From: Bacteroidaceae bacterium
GTDB taxonomy: Bacteria > Bacteroidota > Bacteroidia > Bacteroidales > Bacteroidaceae
Assembly: GCA_017472635.1 (NCBI GenBank)
Contig: JAFUPU010000048.1
Span: 1-50,505 of the forward strand
Direction: 5' to 3'
DNA length: 50,505 nucleotides
Below, piece by piece: positions 1 through 10,941 of this stretch. The stretch's first letter is position 1; every line of letters starts with the position of its first letter. Made by a program: the position numbers and the translations under genes. Under the pieces are notes generated by a model. The model had not been told where the DNA came from and did no database searches. It saw nothing but the letters and a program-made list of their open reading frames with translations.

Positions 1-2164
1 AGATATGGGAAAATTTGGGTCGTCTGAACCACGAAAGAGATACACCATGTAGCGGCAAAGCATAGACGAGTAAAGTGATGAGTGCCCATACCTCTTTAGG
101 ATCCCATCCCCAGTAGCGTCCCCAAGAGACATTTGCCCACACGGAACCGATGAAGATGCCTGTCGTCAGTAAGAATACGGCAGGATAAAGCAGCAATTGG
201 CTATACATCATCAATCTTTCTGCTTCGCGAGGAAAAAACAAAGCCCACACGCCATTGAGCAGGATGAAGGCAAACAAGGCATATGACATCATGATGACTG
301 ATACATGCAGACTTAGCCACGGTGATACGAGCACGGGCATCAACGGGGTTATCTGCGGATTCATCTCGCCTAAATATGAGACAAGCAGGGTAAAACCTGA
401 AAGCAGGAAGCCGAAGGCTATAGCCGGACGAAAACGGCGAGATATGAAAAGGGCAAACACCATGATGCAAAGGGCGAGGAAGAGCATCGTCTCATATCCG
501 TTGCTCAAAGGAATGCGTCCGCCTATGTACCAGCGGAGCAGGTAGCCTGTGAGGGCAAAAAGGAAGGAGAAAAGAAAAAGGAGGTTCATTCCCACTCTTC
601 CCCAACGGAAAAGAGGAACGGACCCCATTCTAACCTTTTCAAGAGGGAAAGAATGAAGCCCCCTATACAGAAGTTTTTTTATCCTGCCTTGTGGAGGAGT
701 AAGGGGAAGAGTACATAATAATAGTATCCCCATCGTCAGGTTAAACATAAAGAGTATCTTTGTGAACGGGATGCTGTTGTATAGCAACTCTGCCTCTATC
801 TTTACTTTACTTAGCGGCTTCACACTACCGTCTGTAGGAATTGGACGAATGAGGGTTCCATTTTGCAACATCATCACCAGTGCCACTTTCTCGTCCGTCT
901 CGATGATTGCTTTCTGTAGAGGTGAAGGCTTGTTTTTAGTTGAAGGATTGCCTGACAGACGAGTTGAAAAGTTGTTTTCTTCCATAATCTGACGCAATCT
1001 GTAGCCTGTTGCTTGTGACTCGTCACTCGAAGAAAACAAATCTACCATTCGTGCATATTCTCCCTTCAAACCTAATTGATGGCGAAGTTCACTGCTCTTT
1101 ATCCGAATAGCCGGCACGTAAGCCCATTCATCAGGATAGCGTTGCCAACTGAGGAGTATCTGTTCAGGTGTAAGGTCGCTGAACGACTCTTTGCCATAGA
1201 GTTTCTTCACAAAGTCGCGTGCCAAGGTGTTTAGGGGTACTATGCGGTCGTGGTAAATCACTTGCATCTCCCTTTTCTCTGCAGCTTCTTCTTGAGGGAT
1301 GATGGAGAGTGGTCTCGTTCCTTGAGCGAGAGTGGTGTCTGCAAAGGCGGAAAGCAGTATAATCGTAGAGACGAGGCGTACAGTGTCAGTCTGCTTGCTC
1401 ACCTTTCGTAGAAGCTGACGGAATCCTCCTTGCGGATGTAATAAAAAGGTAGTCATTGAGATGAACAGCAGCATATATCCGATATAGGTGATACCCGTTC
1501 CCCATGGGTCGTAATTTACACTCAGCCACGTGCCCCGTTTGTCCTCATCGTATGACGATTGGTAGAAACGGTACCCCTCGTGGTCGAGCACATTGTTCAT
1601 GGAGATGAGCTGTCTCTTTCTATCCTTCTCTGTGAGAGAGGGGGATTGAATAAACTGACTGGTTGTAACTTCTCCCTCGCAGGAAGGAATCAGGTGAGGT
1701 GCTATCTCCACAGCACTGACATAGTCAGCCGGAGCATCCGTCCCCGGATAATAGTTGATATAAAACGTGTCGAGCGTCAAGGAAAAAGGTAAGTCGCACA
1801 TTATCCGCGACTCCTCCTCAATGTATTGAATGGAGGGGACTCCCATGCGCAAGTGTATCATTCCCTTACTGCTTGTAAGGTATGACGTGAGTGCACCAAC
1901 CAATATCACAACAAAAGAGAAATGGAGCAAAATTTTCGGTACCACCTGAAAGTTTTTTTTCTCAGACAGGGAAAAAATCATGAGCACACTAAGTACTGCC
2001 CAAAGTATCATGAATGGTACCGAGTGATAGATGTGTTTGGTGACGAATGCAGTACCTTGCGAATGCTCTATCAGGGTGGCTATGGCTAACACTGCAGTGA
2101 GCAACAGGTAAAGCGTCAAGATTACACTTCTTATGATTTTTCTGCCTGTCTTATTTAAATACAT
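1..2164 (-). CDS. ResB-CcsA fused cytochrome c biogenesis protein (partial, 3' end off window)
   Basis: The minus frame opens at an ATG at 2164 and stays open to the left edge (about 721 codons seen), so the C-terminus is missing. Three hydrophobic segments lie within the first 95 residues. A soluble, ResB-like region follows (GYRFYQSSYD near residue 190), then another membrane helix, a long soluble part, and a CcsA-type membrane domain. The heme-handling WWD motif of CcsA is visible at about residues 675-695 (WGRYWGWDPKEVW). Known role of the family: System II delivery of heme across the inner membrane and its attachment to CxxCH apocytochromes. It is the last seen gene of an operon that also encodes two c-heme lipoproteins, 30 bases after the Rid-like gene, so it probably matures them. 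ResB-CcsA fusions are usual in Bacteroidetes. Confidence 0.93.
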   Translation of the reverse strand, partial: MYLNKTGRKIIRSVILTLYLLLTAVLAIATLIEHSQGTAFVTKHIYHSVPFMILWAVLSVLMIFSLSEKKNFQVVPKILLHFSFVVILVGALTSYLTSSKGMIHLRMGVPSIQYIEEESRIMCDLPFSLTLDTFYINYYPGTDAPADYVSAVEIAPHLIPSCEGEVTTSQFIQSPSLTEKDRKRQLISMNNVLDHEGYRFYQSSYDEDKRGTWLSVNYDPWGTGITYIGYMLLFISMTTFLLHPQGGFRQLLRKVSKQTDTVRLVSTIILLSAFADTTLAQGTRPLSIIPQEEAAEKREMQVIYHDRIVPLNTLARDFVKKLYGKESFSDLTPEQILLSWQRYPDEWAYVPAIRIKSSELRHQLGLKGEYARMVDLFSSSDESQATGYRLRQIMEENNFSTRLSGNPSTKNKPSPLQKAIIETDEKVALVMMLQNGTLIRPIPTDGSVKPLSKVKIEAELLYNSIPFTKILFMFNLTMGILLLCTLPLTPPQGRIKKLLYRGLHSFPLEKVRMGSVPLFRWGRVGMNLLFLFSFLFALTGYLLRWYIGGRIPLSNGYETMLFLALCIMVFALFISRRFRPAIAFGFLLSGFTLLVSYLGEMNPQITPLMPVLVSPWLSLHVSVIMMSYALFAFILLNGVWALFFPREAERLMMYSQLLLYPAVFLLTTGIFIGSVWANVSWGRYWGWDPKEVWALITLLVYALPLHGVSLSWFRRPKFSHI

Positions 2165-2194
2165 TTCTCCTTTTTTTAAAGCGTAAATAATGTA

Positions 2195-3322
2195 TTAAAG
2201 CTTTTCAAACCCTTCATTTACGACCTGTTTCACCGCCATACATTCCATCTCTATGAGCCAGCCAGGACGGCAGACAGGGGCGAGCAGGAATATGGTGGGG
2301 TGGGTGGGGAAACGTTCCTCAAACATACGTCGTACAACCGTGTAGTCAGCTGCATCGCGCAGGTAGACAATGAGATGAGCCACATCGTTGAAAGTGCATT
2401 CAGCTTCAGCTAACAGCGTTTCTACATTTTCCCACATCCGTAAGGTTTGGCAGCGTATGTCTCCCGGATACATCACCTCGCCACGGTTGTTGATACTGGC
2501 AGTTCCGGAGATGAGCACATGCCGACGGTCGCCATAATTGATGGCGGTGCCTCGCTCGAAACTTACACCATATTCGTAGGTGGGATTCAAGTGGGTGGGG
2601 GCGTAGAGGAATTTTATTTGTTCGGGTTTCACTCCATCGATAGCGTAAGTGTCCATTGTTACCAACACCTTTGTGTCAGCATGTCTGCCTGCAATGCCTG
2701 TACTGGTAATGAAATGTGTCTTTTCAGTCAACTCTTGGGTGGCGAATACATCATTCCTACCCTTCACTACACCGGCATAGTTTACATCTACGTTTTGCAC
2801 GAAAAACCAAGTACGCACACAATGGTCTGCCAATCGGCACCCTTGCTCGTTCAGTAGCAAAGCGTAGTCGTTGAGCAATAGACGCGTCTGATATTCCGAG
2901 GTGCTGGCATGGTTCATTGCTGTTGCTCCCCACAGGTGCCGGTATGCTCCATGCTTTACTTCATACAACCCTCCAGGTAATGCACGCGTCTGTACCTCCG
3001 TCATAAGATAAACCCATAGAGCGATTTTTGTACCATCCAATGGGGGTTGTTCTACAATCGAAAGGGCACATCCTGTGTGTTCCATCTCCTGTGTCATCAG
3101 GTAATCAGCCTGATTGGCTGCATCACTCAAGAAGTAACGCTTGAATACGGCTACGCTTCCCTTGGCATCATGCTGCATGAGGTCGTCATAGGCAATTGAC
3201 AAGGCTTCCACTTGTTCGGGATAGCTTAGTGTAGGGTCGGTTACGTGAATCATGGCGTGCAATTCTGTCACTCCATCCGTGGTGTTGAATTTGAAGAGTT
3301 CTATCTTTGTCTTGTTTATCAT
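2195..3322 (-). CDS. Rid/YjgF-like (FkbO/Hyg5-type) protein of unknown reaction
   Basis: This 375-residue soluble protein has no signal peptide. The last 130 residues carry a Rid (YjgF/YER057c/UK114) fold pattern: YGDRRHVLISGTASINNRG, then WENVETLLAEAECTFNDV and HLIVYLRDAADY. The length and two-part layout resemble the chorismatase FkbO/Hyg5 group, in which the C-terminal domain is Rid-like; I cannot see that the chorismatase catalytic residues are kept. The gene starts 9 bases after the stop of the cytochrome c lipoprotein and ends 30 bases before ccsA, so it is certainly co-transcribed with c-type cytochrome genes. Its role there is unclear: it could make or break a small cofactor or quinone-like compound, or detoxify a reactive intermediate. 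The family assignment is firm for the C-terminal half; the function is open. Confidence 0.8.
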   Translation of the reverse strand: MINKTKIELFKFNTTDGVTELHAMIHVTDPTLSYPEQVEALSIAYDDLMQHDAKGSVAVFKRYFLSDAANQADYLMTQEMEHTGCALSIVEQPPLDGTKIALWVYLMTEVQTRALPGGLYEVKHGAYRHLWGATAMNHASTSEYQTRLLLNDYALLLNEQGCRLADHCVRTWFFVQNVDVNYAGVVKGRNDVFATQELTEKTHFITSTGIAGRHADTKVLVTMDTYAIDGVKPEQIKFLYAPTHLNPTYEYGVSFERGTAINYGDRRHVLISGTASINNRGEVMYPGDIRCQTLRMWENVETLLAEAECTFNDVAHLIVYLRDAADYTVVRRMFEERFPTHPTIFLLAPVCRPGWLIEMECMAVKQVVNEGFEKL

Positions 3323-3331
3323 ATCTTTTTT

Positions 3332-4039
3332 TTAGTCATTAGCTATATTGTTTATCCATGTTCTCACAATGTCATGCATAGCAGTGCTCATCACCATGTT
3401 TGAGTGATCTTGTTTCCAAGTGCTACTTATGTCGGTGGCTATTGTCTGGTAGAGTACGCTGGTGCCGGCATCTCCTGGATTAACCAATAACATGCCATTT
3501 ATTAGTTGGGATGGTTCCCCGACCAATGCATCGTAGCTTTTCTCTTCGGTCAGGTAGAGACCGGCTCCGGCAAAAGTACTGGCTCCGTGACAACTTGTGC
3601 ATGTAGTGTTGAAGAGCTGTTCTTGTATGGAGGCATACACGCCGAGATTGATTGTGCCGACCTCCATTCGGATGGTGTCGGGAGCATTGAGACCGACTGC
3701 TTGAAAGGTCAATATGCGCTTGCGTAAGCGGTTGGTGACACACAACTCTACACGTTCTACCTCGTCATTGATGCCCGAGAGGACTACTTCGGTTTGTCCG
3801 TCATTGTCGGTTGTCACCGATTTGCTGATTATGGCATACTCGCTTTCGTTTGTAAATCCGGCAACCACTACGCTATATCCGTTTGTCCATTCATCGATAC
3901 CTGAGATGTTTCCTGTCAGTTTGACGATGCGTCCCTCTTCGGGGTGTATCATCTGGTTTTCATAAAGTCGACCATCATCGCATGAGGTGAGCAACATCAT
4001 CATGCATATGGTCATAGCCATTCCTTTTTTCTTTATCAT
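3332..4039 (-). CDS. mono-heme cytochrome c lipoprotein
   Basis: This protein of 235 residues begins with a short signal peptide and a lipobox, LTSC, with the lipidated Cys at residue 20. The next residues are Asp-Asp, matching the acidic signal that sends Bacteroidetes lipoproteins to the cell surface. Residues 30-135 are a beta-rich region of unknown family. A single c-heme site, CTSCH at 147-151, follows, with Met residues further on (MLLVNPGDAG, then NMVMSTAMHD) that could be the second iron ligand. It lies 20 bases after the porin and 9 bases before the Rid-like gene. It is likely an electron carrier in the envelope that works with the di-heme oxidoreductase encoded upstream. The heme site and lipobox are seen directly; the partner and the surface location are inferred. 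Confidence 0.88.
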   Translation of the reverse strand: MIKKKGMAMTICMMMLLTSCDDGRLYENQMIHPEEGRIVKLTGNISGIDEWTNGYSVVVAGFTNESEYAIISKSVTTDNDGQTEVVLSGINDEVERVELCVTNRLRKRILTFQAVGLNAPDTIRMEVGTINLGVYASIQEQLFNTTCTSCHGASTFAGAGLYLTEEKSYDALVGEPSQLINGMLLVNPGDAGTSVLYQTIATDISSTWKQDHSNMVMSTAMHDIVRTWINNIAND

Positions 4040-4059
4040 AGAAAATATGTTTATTCCTA

Positions 4060-5271
4060 TTAGAATGAATATTGCAACTGCACAATACCTGTGTGGGTTG
4101 AAAGTCCCAGATTGTCATTGTCGCGGTCGAGCTGGTCCTCATGCCCGGTGCGACCGATATATTGATACATGGCTTGTAGCTTCAGGTTGCAGTTCTTGAA
4201 GAAGTAGTTTACTCCCACGGCGGGCATGTTGAGGAAACCATCGGTGTCCATGCCGTTGCGGTTCATAAAGTCGTATCGCAGGGCGGCTTGTACGCGCGGT
4301 GCCACGAAGTATCCTCCCTGCACGTATCCGCCAAGGAAGTCGTACGTGTCGTCAATCTTCTGTCGGTCAGTAAAACTTACGTTCATATAATAGACCTCAG
4401 CGGCAAGGTATAGTCTGTTTTTCAACATGGCAAACTCCAGACCTGCCCGATAGTCGTTGGTGCTTTCGCTCTCGCTCTCCACGTTCATCGAAGTCGAAAC
4501 CCCCAGCATCCATTTGTTTTCGTTGAGGCGGTTGGGGTTACCTTGTGTGGCAGGCATCACTCCTTTGGGCATGAAGGTGAGTCGTCCGGCATAGAGGAGT
4601 GAGGGGATGTGCCAATCGTCACTGAAGGTTTTGGTTGCTGAGTTCACCGAGGCACCCGTACCATTCCAGATACCCACCTGATAGCCGAACTTGTCCGACA
4701 TCATGCCATGAAGTTCAACACCCAGGTCAAAGCCCATGCCCATCGTAGGAGTGACGGCATTGAGCGAGTGGGGGAGAATCACCGATGAAGTGAGCGAAGT
4801 AGGCAGAGCCGGCATCAGTGTTTCGCCCAAGGTGGTAAGATAAGCGTGACTGAAAGGTGTTTTGAACTTACCTGCGCGGATGGCCATGCGCTTGCTCAGT
4901 TGCACGTCGAACCACGCCTGTTGCAGGATTCCTCCACCCGAAGCTGCGGCATTGATGCAGAGGTTGAAGGTGACCCGCCCAAAAGCTTTACCGGTAAAGC
5001 CCAATACGGCATAAGGTATTGAGAACCCCGAGTTTGCCACGTTGTCTTGGTTGTAGGCTTTGTCCAACCCCTCGTCGTCGTACCAGCGGAAGTTTGCCGC
5101 TGTCTGTACCAGCAGGTAGGGTTTGAACACAAAATCACCTTTTTTTGTCTCGATGGCGAATCCTTCACGTCCTGCCAATGACACCACGCCATTCTCTGTG
5201 TCTGACTCGTATTGTGCCATGGCTCCCGTAGCAAGGGAGACGAGCATGGCGGAAAGTAGTATTTTCTTCAT
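4060..5271 (-). CDS. outer-membrane porin (phosphate-selective porin O/P-like)
   Basis: This 403-residue protein starts with a clean signal peptide (MKKILLSAMLVSLATGAMAQ), is followed by alternating beta-barrel sequence throughout, and ends in Phe as outer-membrane barrels do. Patterns such as AIRAGKFKTPFSHAYL and FDLGVELHGMM are typical of the O/P porin group used for small anionic or other solutes. It sits third in the imelysin/di-heme operon. A 212-base gap rich in repeats separates it from the gene upstream, whereas the next gene follows after only 20 bases. In this context it may let an iron compound or electron-transfer partner through the outer membrane, but the substrate cannot be read from sequence. 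Confidence 0.85.
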   Translation of the reverse strand: MKKILLSAMLVSLATGAMAQYESDTENGVVSLAGREGFAIETKKGDFVFKPYLLVQTAANFRWYDDEGLDKAYNQDNVANSGFSIPYAVLGFTGKAFGRVTFNLCINAAASGGGILQQAWFDVQLSKRMAIRAGKFKTPFSHAYLTTLGETLMPALPTSLTSSVILPHSLNAVTPTMGMGFDLGVELHGMMSDKFGYQVGIWNGTGASVNSATKTFSDDWHIPSLLYAGRLTFMPKGVMPATQGNPNRLNENKWMLGVSTSMNVESESESTNDYRAGLEFAMLKNRLYLAAEVYYMNVSFTDRQKIDDTYDFLGGYVQGGYFVAPRVQAALRYDFMNRNGMDTDGFLNMPAVGVNYFFKNCNLKLQAMYQYIGRTGHEDQLDRDNDNLGLSTHTGIVQLQYSF

Positions 5272-5280
5272 ATATATATT

Positions 5281-5470
5281 TTTTTTCTTTTAAGGAGTTA
5301 AAGGAGTTATCACTCGCTCCGCTCGTTAGGAGTTAAAGGAGTTAAAGCCGATAGTTTTGCTTACATGTAGGCATCCTCTTGTTTATCATAGTCGGAACTA
5401 TCGGCCAGCAAGCTTGCTTGCGATAACTCCTTAGGCTCGTTAGAGCCGATAACTCCCTTTAACTTCTTTT
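5281..5470. repeat. intergenic element with direct and inverted repeats inside the redox operon
   Basis: A 16-base direct repeat, ggagttaaaggagtta, occurs at 5294-5309 and again at 5329-5344. A 10-base inverted repeat, gccgatagtt / aactatcggc, sits at 5347-5356 and 5396-5405. Shorter complements of the ggagttatc type recur at 5422-5430 and 5448-5456 (gataactcc). Together they can fold the gap between the di-heme oxidoreductase and porin genes into a multi-arm structure. It could lower expression of the downstream genes or protect mRNA ends, or be a repeated palindromic element of the genome. It has no coding potential that I can see. Confidence 0.7.
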
Positions 5471-5483
5471 ATCTCCTTTTAAT

Positions 5484-6917
5484 TTACAATGATTCCAAAA
5501 ACTTTATCAACGCATCTCTGTCCTCCTTCGGCATCTGCTTGAAGAGGTTTTTTGAGGCTTCACCCTCACCACCGTGCCACATGATGGCTTCCAGCAGGTT
5601 GCGTGCGCGTCCGTCGTGCAGGAAGTAGGTGTGTCCGTTTACTTTCTCTTGCAACCCGATACCCCACAGGGGAGTGGTGCGCCACTCGTTGCCTCGGGCA
5701 AGTCCGCTCACGTAGTTGTCGTTGAGTCCTACGCCCATGATTTCCGACCCCATGTCGTGCAGCAGGAAGTCGCTATAGGGGTGAATCGTTTGGTTTCCCA
5801 ACCATGGGAGACCCGTGCCGTTCAGCAGGTTGGTGCCGCGCGGCTTGGTGTGCAGGGTGGTCACGTGGCACAGGTGACACTTGGCCTGGTAGAACATCTC
5901 TTCGCCGCGTTTCACCATGGGGTCGTTCACGTCACGCCGTGCGGGCACTCCCAAGGCTTGCATGTAGAGGTCCACATACTCCATGTCCTCGGTGTTGATG
6001 TCCAGCTGGTCGTACGAGAGTCCCATCATGCTTCCTCCCTGCATCTGGCTTTGCCCTTCGCATATTTCCTCGGGATAGCGGCTGTTGGTCACACCCATGT
6101 CACTGCTGAAACCCAGCTCCACGGTGAGGTCGGCATGTTGTGCTTTGTTGCCCGAAAGGCCGAGGCTCAATACGCCGCGTTCCATGATGTAGTTGGCCCG
6201 TCCGCTGATGCCGTATTCGGGGTAGTTGCTCTGTGCTGCCAGTCTCTCAATCTCATGCGGGTCGATAGCCATCATCTGTCCCATACCTACGTGTCGAAGG
6301 GGGATGCGTACCGTACAGAAGAGGTCTTCGGGTGCCACCGAGTCGGCATACCATTCGGTGATTTCATACTCAGGGTAGCACAATTCGTACTCTTCTCCAT
6401 CGGGGAAAGTGAAAGTCTCGTACTTGAGCGATGTCTTCAGTTTTCCCTCTGCCTCCACACCATAGATGGCTTGATCGTGAATCACCCGACCATAATCCTG
6501 AAAGAAGGCTCCATTCTTGCGCGTTACATAGATGAGCATAGCTGAGAAACCATAACTGCCCGACCCGCCTTCGCTCCACAGCGCTGGTCGTGTGCGTCCG
6601 GCATTGCGATGGCAGCTTCCACAAGAATAACCTGCATAGACAGGTCCGAGTCCTCCACCGTCGCCATTGGAGGTTGTGCGGATATCGTCATATAGTCCAT
6701 CGCCCGAATAGAAACGGCTGAGATATTTTCCTGAAAGCCAGTCTGCAGGTGAGTCGTAAGCCTTGGACGAGTTTACGAATATCGTGGATGTGCCGGCTGA
6801 CAAGGCGTACCCGTCGGGCACCACGATGTCGCGCACGTCCAGTCCTTCGTCTTCGCAGGCTGTCAGAGCCATCAGCGCGGCCAATGCGGTCAAGTTCAAC
6901 ATTTTTCTTTTCATCAT
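5484..6917 (-). CDS. di-heme oxidoreductase lipoprotein (DHOR / 'thiol oxidoreductase', DUF1111-like)
   Basis: The chosen start gives 477 residues; an earlier in-frame ATG at 6947 would put 10 residues before the signal peptide. The lipobox LTAC has its Cys at residue 21, followed by Glu-Asp-Glu, an acidic surface-export-like tail. Two c-heme sites are visible: CGSCH at 99-103 and CHLCH at about 346-350. The closing region, with LLHDMGSE, EWRTTPLWGIG and FLHDGRARNLLEAI, is characteristic of the DHOR family, which pairs with imelysins in iron-related loci. Here it follows the imelysin gene by about 100 bases and precedes the repeat-rich gap and porin. It is a probable envelope electron-transfer enzyme; its electron donor and acceptor are unknown. 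Confidence 0.9.
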   Translation of the reverse strand: MMKRKMLNLTALAALMALTACEDEGLDVRDIVVPDGYALSAGTSTIFVNSSKAYDSPADWLSGKYLSRFYSGDGLYDDIRTTSNGDGGGLGPVYAGYSCGSCHRNAGRTRPALWSEGGSGSYGFSAMLIYVTRKNGAFFQDYGRVIHDQAIYGVEAEGKLKTSLKYETFTFPDGEEYELCYPEYEITEWYADSVAPEDLFCTVRIPLRHVGMGQMMAIDPHEIERLAAQSNYPEYGISGRANYIMERGVLSLGLSGNKAQHADLTVELGFSSDMGVTNSRYPEEICEGQSQMQGGSMMGLSYDQLDINTEDMEYVDLYMQALGVPARRDVNDPMVKRGEEMFYQAKCHLCHVTTLHTKPRGTNLLNGTGLPWLGNQTIHPYSDFLLHDMGSEIMGVGLNDNYVSGLARGNEWRTTPLWGIGLQEKVNGHTYFLHDGRARNLLEAIMWHGGEGEASKNLFKQMPKEDRDALIKFLESL

Positions 6918-7016
6918 AGGTTTTCTTTTTTCGCTCAAAAGGCACACCCTATATCTCCTCTATGGAGACACAGGATGCGCCCGTCCTTATGTGTGCTTAT
7001 TTAATCTCTTTACAGT

Positions 7017-8204
7017 TCAATTCTTCGCTCTGCGCGGATTACCGTCCTTGAAGAGGAGATACTCCAAGGTGTGGAAGCCACGCACGCTCTGTGCGGCCTC
7101 TTTAGCTTCGTCACCGTCTTCATCGCTCCAGTCGAGATCGTCGAAGTTGCCCGAGGTGAGGATTTGCACGATAGCATCCTGATCGAGCGGCCAGCTGTCC
7201 ATGTTGGGGTCAAGTCCGAGTGCATCTACGGGGCCGAAGAGGAAGGCTTCGCTCTTCTCCCAAGGTTCGCGGGCAGCCAACCAGGCATCGCAGGCAGCTT
7301 CGAATGCTTCGTTTGTGGGGGTGGTGGCCAGAGCCACAACCTTGCTATACAGGTTGCTGTTCTTCTCCATCAGGTCTTTGTAGGTGGGCAGTACCACGGC
7401 ATCCACGTAGTTGTCAACCACGGCATCGAGAACCTCTTCGCTGAGGGCATTTCCGGTCACGATTGTGCGCAGCTTGATGTTCATCACGTCCACCAGTTCC
7501 TTGCAGGCTGCCATGGCCGCACGTGCCTCGTCGCAATTGATATGGTTGCGGAAAGGCTGAGGAATGGCCTGAATGGCAGCAGCAGTCCGGTTGATGACAG
7601 CCACCACTTCTGCATCCAAGTCTGCATCAGCAGCCTTCACTACGGCAGACAGCGAGTTTTCATTGACTGTGCCGTCGAGCGAACCGAAGTAGGCGTTTCG
7701 GATAGACCAGATGTTGTTGGTATAGTCATCGCGTGAATGCCAACTGTACCATGACTCCACGGCATAGAGGGCACTGGTGATGTCGCCGCTGTTGTAGAGG
7801 TTGTAGGGTTCGCCAATCTTGGCATTTCCCACCTCATCGGCAATGGTCACACAGCCGTCGAGAATCTCTTCCACACAGTTGCGTGCAGATTCGTAGGGGG
7901 GGCGGGTGTGGTTCTTGAAACTCTGTGCATAAGCCTCACCGCCTTCGTAGCTGGTGTTCCAGGCTTCATAGAGTGTGGTGGCGTCTGCCTTGAGCAGGTA
8001 GGCCACCTGCTTCATGTAGTTGTGCCAGCTGTCGGCATTGGCAGCACTGTAGTCGAGGTCGGCTGAAGATTCGTTTCCTTCAACATTCTCATTGCCACCA
8101 GAGGGATCAGTTACGGGGTCGTTATCATCGTCCCCACACGAAGTTACTCCTACTTGGAGTGATACAGCCACAAGGGCCATCCAAAAAATGTTTTTAGCTT
8201 TCAT
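7017..8204 (-). CDS. imelysin-family lipoprotein (IrpA/peptidase M75-like)
   Basis: This 395-residue lipoprotein has lipobox VTSC (Cys at about residue 23) followed by Gly-Asp-Asp-Asp, a strong match to the acidic surface-export signal. The remainder is mostly alpha-helical, as expected for the imelysin fold. The family motif GxHxxE is present as G376-F-H378-T-L-E381, very near the C-terminus. Further family-like segments are AREPWEKSEAFLFGPVD and LGLDPNMDSWPLD. Imelysins bind metal and are tied to iron uptake; the family name peptidase is historical. It is the first gene of the operon, downstream of a well-formed promoter at 8282-8313, and therefore sets the theme of the locus: iron. Confidence 0.92.
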   Translation of the reverse strand: MKAKNIFWMALVAVSLQVGVTSCGDDDNDPVTDPSGGNENVEGNESSADLDYSAANADSWHNYMKQVAYLLKADATTLYEAWNTSYEGGEAYAQSFKNHTRPPYESARNCVEEILDGCVTIADEVGNAKIGEPYNLYNSGDITSALYAVESWYSWHSRDDYTNNIWSIRNAYFGSLDGTVNENSLSAVVKAADADLDAEVVAVINRTAAAIQAIPQPFRNHINCDEARAAMAACKELVDVMNIKLRTIVTGNALSEEVLDAVVDNYVDAVVLPTYKDLMEKNSNLYSKVVALATTPTNEAFEAACDAWLAAREPWEKSEAFLFGPVDALGLDPNMDSWPLDQDAIVQILTSGNFDDLDWSDEDGDEAKEAAQSVRGFHTLEYLLFKDGNPRRAKN

Positions 8205-8281
8205 TCTTTCTCTTTTACTTTACTTAATTACTGATTTACTTCTTACAATCGGCTCCGGATTTTCCGTTTGTTTTCCGGGTG

Positions 8282-8317
8282 CAAAATTACAGCCTTTTGT
8301 GCGCTCCTACAATACCG
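8282..8317 (-). promoter_or_regulatory. Bacteroides-type promoter of the imelysin operon, with GTATTGT motif
   Basis: On the minus strand the -7 element is TAATTTTG (8289-8282), continuing as TAATTTTGCACCC. The -33 TTG is at 8313-8311, 21 bases upstream, within GGTATTGTA (8317-8309). The predicted transcript starts near 8275, 70 bases before the imelysin ATG. The GTATTGT word recurs at the same place in the two other promoters of this locus. Confidence 0.8.
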
Positions 8318-8378: not shown

Positions 8379-9707
8379 TTACTTTTTGAAAAACCAGCCG
8401 ACGTATGCGATGCCAATGGCAAACTCATTTTCGCTGTTATAGCGCCCTGAACCGAAAATCTTGGATGTGCCTATTTGACGGGTTGTATAGTCTGCTTTCA
8501 CTACCAGGTTTGGTAGGGCAAACCAGTTGATACCTACTGTCCACAGACTCGTCTGCAGGCGTTTGTCCATAGTCTGTCCCTTTTCACCTTTCTCTTGCGG
8601 ATTATAATATTCATAGTGGGCAAAGGGATAGATGACAGGGGCTTTCTTTTCGGGGAAGAAAGCACTAAGGTTGATGCCTGCCTCTATGCTATAGCTGATG
8701 ACATTTTTGGCAATGGGGGTCAACTTGCTGTAGGGGGCTTTGTTTGACTGGTATACCTTGCCGAGGGCGACAGGGTTGCCAAGGTCACCGTAGAGAATGT
8801 TGCCTCGTGCAGTCACGTATTTGTTGTGGTATTGTGCATCTGCCGAAAATATCTTCACAGGTATTTTGCCTACCGATGAGTAAGTTTGCATCTTGTCTGC
8901 ATTCTTTCCTGCGTCGGCACAATAGTAAGCTGACAGTCCCACGCGTAACCCTTCCACTCCTTTATAGTCGAGGCGGGCAGCATAGCCGGGTGAGGTAAAG
9001 TTGTCTTCTTCAAAGAATCCCTGTTTTCCACCTGCAACCCATCCGTTTCGGTCAAAACCATTGGCATTCAAGCCTGCCACTATCATTGCCTGGTAGTCGA
9101 AACGGGCATAACCTTTACCGAAAGAACCGAAAAGCTCGAGACCTGTTTCGTGCCAAGTACAAGGGATGAGGGTGCTTTCACCTTCGGGGCGTACGGTGCT
9201 GAAGAAATTGATGGACTCGTGGTGGGCGTTGGTCAATCCCACGGGTACAATGATATGACCCGCACGCACGTTGATGGAAGGGTGGATGAGTCGGGTGATG
9301 TGAAATTGTTCAAGCACCACTTCGCCTCCCTTCTCTATCTCAGTTTCGTATTCTCCATTTTCTGTGTTCTCCAATTCCATGGCAGAACCTGTACCGCCTG
9401 ATTCAAATTCAATCTCGGCACCCAATATCCATTTGCTGTTGAACTTATAGTCTAATGCCAGAATAAAGCGGGGGATACTAATCGTATTGCGGTCAGTCTT
9501 GGTGTTACCTTCTGTACCGCCATTGAATCGGTTGATTCCATAGTCTTTAAAAGCTGCAACTGCTTCGCCATACCCTCCGATACGGAATTGGCTGTACTCT
9601 TCTTTAGAGTGCTCGCTGTCTTCTTTTGTCGTAGCTGTAACTGCTGTAGTGAAAAAGGCTGTGAGCCAAAGCGATAAAGCTAATCTTCTTATTGTCTCTT
9701 TTGTCAT
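8379..9707 (-). CDS. outer-membrane porin, monocistronic
   Basis: This 442-residue protein has a signal peptide (cleavage probably after about residue 25) and then beta-barrel sequence to a terminal aromatic/basic end (YVGWFFKK). Segments such as VRAGHIIVPVGLTNAHHES and CTWHETGLELFG are typical of the O/P-like porin group of Bacteroidetes, which often lies beside iron or phosphate genes. Between it and the imelysin gene is the imelysin promoter, so it forms a separate transcript with its own promoter at 9736-9766. It is divergent from the di-iron regulator, and its promoter is almost a copy of the other two, so all three are probably controlled together. The solute is unknown. Confidence 0.85.
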   Translation of the reverse strand: MTKETIRRLALSLWLTAFFTTAVTATTKEDSEHSKEEYSQFRIGGYGEAVAAFKDYGINRFNGGTEGNTKTDRNTISIPRFILALDYKFNSKWILGAEIEFESGGTGSAMELENTENGEYETEIEKGGEVVLEQFHITRLIHPSINVRAGHIIVPVGLTNAHHESINFFSTVRPEGESTLIPCTWHETGLELFGSFGKGYARFDYQAMIVAGLNANGFDRNGWVAGGKQGFFEEDNFTSPGYAARLDYKGVEGLRVGLSAYYCADAGKNADKMQTYSSVGKIPVKIFSADAQYHNKYVTARGNILYGDLGNPVALGKVYQSNKAPYSKLTPIAKNVISYSIEAGINLSAFFPEKKAPVIYPFAHYEYYNPQEKGEKGQTMDKRLQTSLWTVGINWFALPNLVVKADYTTRQIGTSKIFGSGRYNSENEFAIGIAYVGWFFKK

Positions 9708-9735: not shown

Positions 9736-9770
9736 CAAAATTAGAACTATTCTATCTTTCAGACAATACT
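9736..9770 (-). promoter_or_regulatory. promoter of the second porin, with GTATTGT motif
   Basis: On the minus strand, TAATTTTG at 9743-9736 (extended to TAATTTTGCACCC) is the -7 element, and TTG at 9766-9764 lies 20 bases upstream as -33, inside AGTATTGTC. The predicted start of transcription is near 9729, about 20 bases from the porin ATG at 9707. Confidence 0.8.
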
Positions 9771-9820
9771 TAAAACTTGGGTTTTTATAGAGGATTCTTT
9801 AGCGGAAAATCACAATTTTT

Positions 9821-9860
9821 AGGTATTGTGTATATATGGTATTATGGCTAATTTTGCACC
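9821..9860 (+). promoter_or_regulatory. promoter of the hemerythrin-LuxR regulator, with GTATTGT motif
   Basis: GGTATTGTG at 9822-9830 contains the -33 TTG (9826-9828). Twenty bases later is the -7 element TAATTTTG (9849-9856), continuing as TAATTTTGCACCG. The arrangement matches the other two promoters of the locus and suggests self-regulation. The predicted leader is about 90 bases. Confidence 0.78.
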
Positions 9861-9951: not shown

Positions 9952-10941
9952 ATGGCAACCGTTAACAATCAGCGTATATTGCGTCCTTATCGTCCATCAG
10001 ATAAGATGCGTGATTTGATAGAAGATAATAGCTTGTTGCTTATGGTGATGAATCGCTTTGGTATCTCTTTGGGGTTTGGCGACAAGTCGGTAAAAGAGAT
10101 ATGTGATATGCAGCATGTTGATGTCTCTACATTTTTGGTTGTAGCTAATTTCGTCAGCAAAAAAATATATGAAGATGGTAGGGCTCCGTTGCTTTCTTTG
10201 GCATCCTTGATAGACTATCTGAAACGTGCTCACTCTTATTTCTTGGATTACAATCTGCCCACTATCCGTCGTCGGTTGATTGAGTCAATTGATTGTTCGG
10301 GAGCCGACGATGTTGCTTTGTTGATACTGCGGTTTTATGATGAATATGTGACCGAAGTACGCCGCCATATGGAGTATGAGAATGAAACGGTGTTTGCCTA
10401 TGTGAGTGAATTGCTCAACGGAAGGTTGGACAAAGATTATAGCATTCAGGTCTTTGCCAATAAGCACAATCATATCGAAACCAAACTCGAAGAACTTAAA
10501 AATATCATCATCCGGTACTATTCACAGCAGGGGAACAATCGTTTGACTTCGGTTCTTTTTGATATCATCAATTGCGAAGAAGACCTGATGCTTCATTGCA
10601 TGGTAGAAGACCAATTGTTCGTTCCGGTTGTCTCTCAGACAGAAGCTGAAATGCGTACAAAGGCCTGTTCTTCTTCTCGTCAGCCGGAGGTGGCAGATGA
10701 AAGTTCGTCTGTCGCAGGTTCGTTGGATATTTTAAGTGAACGCGAGAAAGAGATTATCCGATGTGTGGCAATGGGGATGACAAACAAAGAGATTGCAGAA
10801 GAACTGTTCTTGTCAATCAATACGATTACCACTCACCGTCGTAATATCACGAACAAGCTGCAGATTCATACTCCCAATGGGTTGACCATTTATGCGTTGG
10901 TCAATAAGTTGGTCAAATTGCAAGAGATAAAAATGGGTTGA
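9952..10941 (+). CDS. transcription regulator: RIC/YtfE-like di-iron hemerythrin domain fused to LuxR-type HTH
   Basis: This 329-residue protein has three parts. Residues 10-70 resemble the ScdA N-terminal domain (MRDLIEDNS...NRFGISLGFG), but the paired cysteines usual there are replaced by Leu-Gly. Residues 85-225 form a hemerythrin-like bundle with candidate iron ligands H94, H139, E143, H172 or H174, H215 and E219; the 45-residue gap from H94 to H139 and the HxxxE pairs copy the di-iron site of YtfE/ScdA repair proteins. Residues 258-325 are a GerE/LuxR helix-turn-helix (LSEREKEIIRCVAMGMTNKE, then SINTITTHRR). It probably senses oxygen, nitric oxide or iron through the di-iron centre. It faces away from the porin gene and next to the iron/heme operon, its likely targets. 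Confidence 0.88.
   Translation: MATVNNQRILRPYRPSDKMRDLIEDNSLLLMVMNRFGISLGFGDKSVKEICDMQHVDVSTFLVVANFVSKKIYEDGRAPLLSLASLIDYLKRAHSYFLDYNLPTIRRRLIESIDCSGADDVALLILRFYDEYVTEVRRHMEYENETVFAYVSELLNGRLDKDYSIQVFANKHNHIETKLEELKNIIIRYYSQQGNNRLTSVLFDIINCEEDLMLHCMVEDQLFVPVVSQTEAEMRTKACSSSRQPEVADESSSVAGSLDILSEREKEIIRCVAMGMTNKEIAEELFLSINTITTHRRNITNKLQIHTPNGLTIYALVNKLVKLQEIKMG

Follow-up and report, generated by a model that had tools for sequence, protein, structure and literature searches.

In Bacteroides thetaiotaomicron, the genes BT2473-BT2482 are induced 62.7-323.7-fold by iron depletion; in the part of the report available to us they encode two CcsA proteins, a porin, a thiol oxidoreductase and an M75 peptidase, and are also raised, BT2479 included, in a colitis study cited there (PMC10434189). 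A related locus is found in a 50,505-nucleotide stretch from a Bacteroidaceae bacterium (GenBank assembly GCA_017472635.1, contig JAFUPU010000048.1, positions 1 to 50,505), hereafter the window, which is the entire contig 115 of a 65%-complete source genome. Six colinear genes on its minus strand, recognised from open reading frames (ORFs) and Pfam matches, encode an imelysin, a di-heme lipoprotein (DHOR), a porin, a mono-heme lipoprotein, a Rid/FkbO-like protein for which we use the short name RidL, and a ResB-CcsA fusion (CcsBA). As far as the B. thetaiotaomicron locus is described in the available text, the two have CcsA, porin, thiol oxidoreductase and M75 peptidase genes, a helix-turn-helix (HTH) regulator and three hypotheticals in matching order, but a fimbrillin gene lies within BT2473-BT2482, and RidL is equated with BT2475 by gene order alone. 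The operon itself is already reported as an iron-depletion locus in that species; what is new here is a putative iron operator for Bacteroidales, surface-lipoprotein signals on the cytochromes, and a Hyg5-like enzyme that appears to stand where the B. thetaiotaomicron annotation says hypothetical. Operator, surface signal and chorismatase likeness go unmentioned for BT2473-BT2482 in the part of PMC10434189 available to us, and the main text of PMC13142918 contains none of the terms imelysin, cytochrome, BT2479, BT2478, M75 and peptidase. We consider it rather probable that the locus is an iron-starvation operon of Bacteroidaceae acting by the mechanism proposed below; its regulation by iron is well supported, and a service in iron acquisition at the cell surface is likely. 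This would give a mechanism-level reading for a locus counted among those that a model gut commensal induces strongly in response to iron shortage.

Parts of this arrangement have analogues in other systems. An imelysin stands beside a heme protein, with a link to iron, in the imelysin-EfeB/DHOR operons (EfeUOB; PA4370-PA4373 of Pseudomonas aeruginosa), and the available portion of the same source presents the structure of a B. ovatus imelysin, circular permutation among Bacteroidales, and operons that include EfeB-type peroxidases (PMC3143127). The window operon, in contrast, is without EfeU/FTR1, has its own porins, mono-heme lipoprotein, CcsBA, RidL and surface-lipoprotein signals, and is of a type in which the imelysin motif is C-terminal in 39 of 52 ORFs; an FTR1-type permease (EfeU) was found in none of 12 operon-bearing genomes, and an EfeU-type import route was set aside for that reason. 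System II (Ccs) maturation is represented in the window by a ResB-CcsA fusion with a WWD motif, the difference being that this copy lies within an iron operon. Porin-cytochrome conduits such as Mtr and Ext also combine porins with c-type lipoproteins, whereas the operon offers three hemes only and a weak match of its porin to the ExtI profile (26.8 bits, cut-off 150). A multiheme outer-membrane wire was set aside, the one and two CxxCH sites of the cytochromes providing too few hemes for spanning the membrane.

The operon is real, conserved and widespread. The original prediction took the six genes for one operon whose order could be compared across genomes. All six do lie on the minus strand, and 53 of the 99 non-duplicate loci show the set again, but the operon is bigger than was supposed: a second porin-like gene (porin2, 8379-9707, minus strand) usually leads it, in the window with a promoter site of its own. 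These figures come from 105 examined loci, 25 from relatives and 80 named, six of the 25 being duplicates of named ones; the scan of the genome collection used the best 80 of 443 relatives, so locus shares apply to close relatives. The 99 loci divide into operons with CcsBA (45), operons without a CcsBA match next to RidL (8), partial operons (5), RidL-CcsBA pairs only (9, three of them limited by contig ends) and RidL alone (32, of which nine are limited by contig ends and five are weak matches below 100 bits, leaving 18 clear cases); the 80 named loci fall into the same classes as 42, 8, 3, 7 and 20, with 13 limited by contig ends. From these class counts we conclude that RidL also lives outside the operon. 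RidL exceeds 200 bits in 21 of 61 genomes, the window's own among the 21, in a protein search of that genome and 60 relatives, and is uncommon in the wider phylum (4 of 296 genomes at 1e-20, own genome included). DHOR is present in all 12 named operon genomes. Three CxxCH sites in total (CTSCH, CGSCH and CHLCH) had been counted correctly, and the pattern is shared, with one site in 53 of 53 operon mono-heme ORFs and two in 51 of 55 operon DHOR ORFs.

A link to iron, which had been suspected from the first, is supported by the induction of the B. thetaiotaomicron counterpart under iron depletion, as described in the accessible part of that work, and by a promoter site common to iron genes. Upstream regions of porin2 contain TAGGTATTG, then 20 bases, then TAnnTTTG, which we take to be the Bacteroides -7 element; GGTATTG presumably overlaps the -33 position of the Bacteroides promoter. 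Within one mismatch, GGTATTG-N20-TAnnTTTG occurs exactly three times in the window, against 0.09 expected from dinucleotide shuffles, and these three promoter/operator-like sites lie at the promoters of imelysin (CGGTATTG-N20-TAATTTTG, 8282-8317, minus strand, one mismatch), of porin2 (AAGTATTG-N20-TAATTTTG, 9736-9771, minus strand, one mismatch) and of a divergent hemerythrin-LuxR gene (AGGTATTG-N20-TAATTTTG, 9821-9856, plus strand, exact match). At the same tolerance 37 of 49 operon loci have the site ahead of porin2, and simple shuffles have it in 0 of 245 cases. It is found ahead of imelysin in one of 51 fetched loci (the window not counted), ahead of operon RidL in 0 of 53, CcsBA in 0 of 45, RidL pairs in one of eight and the regulator in two of 27.

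Genome scans extend the site beyond the operon. Twelve named genomes yielded 23 sites (11 genomes with a site) against one for the reversed pattern, and the window's own genome with 40 relatives, scanned with a slightly stricter pattern (one base more), yielded 31 sites in 20 of 41 genomes against none. The site is rare, with 54 occurrences over the two scans, and of the 53 loci returned, 10 are the operon's own promoters and 43 are other loci. Twenty of the latter, picked by eye from their translations, were scanned with Pfam, so that the share of iron genes among them is no unbiased rate: FeoA-FeoB (3), NRAMP (1), ZIP (1), flavodoxin (1), HmuY (2), TonB plug (4), TetR (1) and seven others, namely two partial outer-membrane-receptor domains, an OprB-type porin, a CCG-domain protein, an LRR protein, an LCM methyltransferase and one with no family. 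The FeoA-FeoB cases come from three genomes in three other families of Bacteroidales, and the NRAMP gene is in the window's own genome. Because FeoA-FeoB, NRAMP, HmuY, TonB receptors and other such genes follow it in Bacteroidales, GGTATTG-N20-TAnnTTTG is probably an iron operator, and we infer that a candidate Fur-type repressor binds the GGTATTG site. Five loci have no ORF behind the site, and the unscanned genes behind it include some without an obvious iron link, among them what we take, from their sequences, to be enolase-like and cysteine-synthase-like genes. These cases, with the presumed overlap at -33, are what one would see if the site were an ordinary Bacteroides -33/-7 promoter with nothing to say about iron; we think this very unlikely, given the rarity of the site, its position at several iron genes and the fact that 18 of 56 sites form an inverted repeat, ATACC-N8-GGTAT. 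A literature search gave no paper on such an operator, judged by title, among the eight listed of 99 matches. As an iron operator, the compact Bacteroidales element proposed here (GGTATTG at -33, partly ATACC-N8-GGTAT) could be used to map iron regulons without expression data. Two further groups of genes were seen behind it. Three similar small lipoproteins (with the residues CTHTCKHG) are encoded behind the site at L180, L187 and L200, in three genomes belonging to the window's genus; the one in L180, which was scanned, has no Pfam match, and the three possibly represent a new type of iron-regulon protein. The genomes that hold L122 (B. mediterraneensis) and L102 (P. plebeius) have the same palindromic site ahead of one type of gene, at L162 and L172, which we take from its sequence to be formate C-acetyltransferase-like.

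The proteins that would act on iron look like surface lipoproteins. The surface export signal of B. thetaiotaomicron lipoproteins is S(D/E)3, according to the available part of PMC6222051. In the window, the lipobox Cys is followed by GDDD in imelysin (7017-8204, minus strand; PF09375, 209.4 bits), by EDEG in DHOR (5484-6947, minus strand; PF06537, 221.8 bits; CGSCH and CHLCH), and by DDG in the mono-heme c-type lipoprotein (3332-4039, minus strand; CTSCH), for which a Pfam scan gave no family above cut-off. Judged by eye, the GTG at 6947 is probably not the true start of DHOR, which we would place at an internal ATG, either 6917 or 6914. A lipobox was recognised in 52 of 54 imelysin, 41 of 57 DHOR and 35 of 56 mono-heme ORFs, and in these we counted acidic residues at +2 to +6 after the Cys, with 144 other lipoprotein-like ORFs of at least 150 amino acids (aa) as background; these come from the same loci and may include ORFs that are not genes. 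At least two acidic residues are found in 43 of 52 imelysins, 36 of 41 DHORs and 33 of 35 mono-heme proteins, compared with 18 of 144 in the background; at least three are found in 32, 24 and 3, respectively, compared with 3 of 144, and since so few of its ORFs reach this level the mono-heme protein is the poorest fit. Agreement with S(D/E)3 is best in imelysins (CSDDD) and less exact in the cytochromes, with CDDG and CDEG in mono-heme proteins. BT_2479, the B. thetaiotaomicron imelysin, was detected by mass spectrometry in a co-culture supernatant, in the available part of PMC6282197, and its signal peptide has served for the secretion of foreign proteins, described as vesicle-associated, in the available part of a preprint (PMC13192842). 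An activity outside the cell, as first envisaged, gains support from the predicted signals and, indirectly, from that supernatant.

The window imelysin is of the circularly permuted type, PF09375 matching in two stretches in permuted order, with GxHxxE near the C-terminus; across 52 operon imelysin ORFs this motif lies in the last fifth in 39, mid-protein in nine, at the 0.8 border in two, and is lacking in two. It matches PDB chain 3n8u/3oyv at 491.7 bits, which we take to be the B. ovatus imelysin of PMC3143127. A protease role for imelysin was set aside, a BT_2479 mutant having retained the protease activity studied, in the part of PMC6282197 available. Comparison of DHOR (a trimmed query, 5517-6914, last residues absent) and of the porin with solved structures gave nothing useful. 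The porin (4060-5271, minus strand) belongs to the Porin_O_P family (PF07396, 204.3 bits); porin2, a second porin-like barrel and usual operon leader, conserved in first position, reaches only 16.9 bits with PF07396, below cut-off.

DHOR might instead work at the surface as a peroxidase that the mono-heme cytochrome feeds, clearing H2O2 where the surface is exposed to oxygen, as in an inflamed gut, while imelysin binds iron only. PF06537 is labelled 'putative peroxidase', BT2479 is up in colitis in the available account, and a gene for a hemerythrin-domain regulator adjoins the operon; but the Pfam name carries no tested function, the inducer reported in the available text is iron depletion and the promoter site is one common to iron genes, and we regard the peroxidase role as unlikely beside one in iron acquisition.

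RidL (2195-3322, minus strand) has 375 aa, a Rid fold and the marker residues of Hyg5-type chorismatases; no signal peptide was seen by eye. Its Pfam match covers the last hundred residues only (PF01042, 55.2 bits). A profile of 41 RidL sequences matches Hyg5 over positions 151-358, and hhalign with a Hyg5 fragment starting at residue 116 gives 98.4% (E 4.8e-15, 197 columns). G209, G273, C351, R352 and E358 are invariant in 41 of 41 sequences. The catalytic residue of Hyg5 is Glu-334, and the subfamily markers, numbered for Nat-hyg5, are Gly-164, Gly-231 and Cys-318 (PMC7170507); we placed the markers at Hyg5 173, 240 and 327, the catalytic Glu being offset by nine residues between the two. 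Hyg5 G173, G240, C327 and E334 align with RidL G209, G273, C351 and E358, whereas in FkbO the second Gly and the Cys are both replaced by Ala, a difference at two of the four positions, which is why RidL is seen to follow Hyg5 rather than FkbO. Set beside the Hyg5 and FkbO chorismatases (5ag3, 4bps), RidL shares a match beyond the Rid domain, the catalytic Glu and the Gly/Gly/Cys markers of Hyg5, and differs in its iron operon setting, in a score far below the curated one (49 bits with TIGR04444, cut-off 325, although all 41 members match at 1e-3) and in its first 128 residues, which lie outside the TIGR04444 match. A PDB search with the RidL profile placed a RidA-like chain (59.5 bits) above Hyg5 (46.9 bits). 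Because of this ranking and the curated cut-off we use 'chorismatase-like' and do not call RidL a member of the family; by its sequence it looks like a Hyg5-type chorismatase-like enzyme.

The PF01042 match above cut-off and the rank of the RidA-like chain are also what a Rid-type imine/enamine deaminase, co-transcribed by chance, would produce. Such a role is doubtful, with 375 aa in RidL against about 130, SGTAS and VCR motifs as in Hyg5 and unlike the RidA-type sequences compared, and a Hyg5 match whose 197 columns run far past the Rid domain; plain RidA was set aside on motifs and length. Another possibility is that RidL is not an aromatic-acid enzyme but a partner of CcsBA in heme handling or maturation. 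The CcsBA gene (2-2164, minus strand), a system II heme attachment protein, is truncated, losing its C-terminus, because the window ends at the contig end; it scores above cut-off with PF05140 (55.5 bits) and PF01578 (100.2 bits), reaches 116.8 bits with TIGR03144 (cut-off 187.6) in this truncated form, and has the WWD motif as WGRYWGWD in translation, a motif that 44 of 46 operon ORFs contain. The adjacency of the two genes survives rearrangement: the pair stands alone in nine of 99 loci, the order is reversed, with CcsBA ahead of RidL rather than behind, in L042, L048 and L114, and two pair genomes (G032 and G024) have DHOR on a separate contig. Partnership nonetheless seems improbable to us when RidL stands without CcsBA in eight of the 53 operon loci, RidL is alone in 32 of 99, and the chorismatase markers are invariant in aligned solo copies too.

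In proposing a mechanism, we would have iron shortage release a Fur-type repressor from the GGTATTG site, upon which porin2, imelysin, DHOR, porin, cytochrome, RidL and CcsBA would be expressed. CcsBA would load the three hemes in the periplasm, and both cytochromes and imelysin would be exported as surface lipoproteins. There the GxHxxE site of imelysin would hold iron, while DHOR and the mono-heme protein would switch its oxidation state; reduction to Fe2+ is favoured for the single reason that a search of 12 operon genomes turned up FTR1 in none, which fits Fe2+ uptake. The porins would let iron into the periplasm, and FeoAB, whose genes follow this site in other families of Bacteroidales, would import it. 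RidL, presumably cytoplasmic, might convert chorismate to 3-hydroxybenzoate or a related aromatic acid that serves as ligand, reductant or redox carrier, and this is the least certain step. In the available part of one study Fe3+ is reduced by protocatechuate, catechol and 2-amino-3-hydroxybenzoate, not by benzoate, 3-hydroxybenzoate not being among the compounds mentioned (PMC7064749). A more elaborate version, to which we attach very little credence, is that in starved cells the aromatic acid leaves by an operon porin and feeds electrons to the surface cytochromes or reduces Fe3+ itself, the whole being a ferric reductase in which a diffusible shuttle replaces the multiheme wire.

Several observations weigh against this reading. 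An inner-membrane electron donor is not among the operon genes. Eight of the 53 operon loci have no CcsBA match within 400 bases of RidL, and RidL is solo in the 32 loci (18 clear) counted above, none of 27 solo RidL genes having the site within one mismatch. A search for DHOR in nine genomes with paired or solo RidL found it in six, full-scoring on another contig in G032 and G024 and as weaker kin (86-106 bits) in the other four, and did not find it in G005, G006 and G012, close relatives that bear RidL and are 81-91% complete. Because RidL occurs alone and no DHOR was found in these three, its function may be unrelated to the operon; in a quick tree the solo copies fall mostly, though not wholly, in one clade. 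To these must be added the low TIGR04444 score and unmatched N-terminal part of RidL. With regard to the operator, the genome scans made here did not find the FeoAB site in the window's own family, the full inverted repeat is present in only the 18 of 56 sites already mentioned, and the window's exact site is without a good left half, the best having three of five bases. The original prediction was largely right overall, but its description of a self-contained redox system is not supported: the operon genes include neither an iron permease nor a quinol dehydrogenase for the inner membrane, FTR1 was not found in the 12 operon genomes, three hemes are too few for crossing the outer membrane, and some operon loci give no CcsBA match near RidL.

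Copies and variants of the operon genes were seen at several other loci. L048 and L114 are variant operons of porin2 and imelysin with a divergent DHOR (113 and 125 bits), then CcsBA and RidL, and no match to the porin or mono-heme gene. RidL copies that are apparently decaying occur as a fragment adjoining a full operon (L035, 991-1284) and as matches across two reading frames (G016, contig 2, 295093-296167). Outside the window's class, L140 and L141 encode distant RidL kin (~105 bits) that keep the SGTAS and VCR..L.E motifs and whose neighbours, within the short stretches seen, differ from those of the operon.

The divergent neighbour of the operon (9952-10941, plus strand) encodes a LuxR-type regulator with a hemerythrin domain (PF01814, 40.6 bits; PF00196, 63.6 bits). 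In the window it has its own iron-type promoter site, and its placement in relatives varies: it may diverge from the operon, lie convergently behind it, or diverge from a RidL-CcsBA pair (L115). Finally, the intergenic stretch between DHOR and porin (5272-5483) contains repeat units that match elsewhere in the same genome. These GGAGTTAAAGGAGTTA-type units are a dispersed intergenic repeat, with 13 more partial matches on contigs 20, 39, 70 and 106, near the contig start on 20 and 39.

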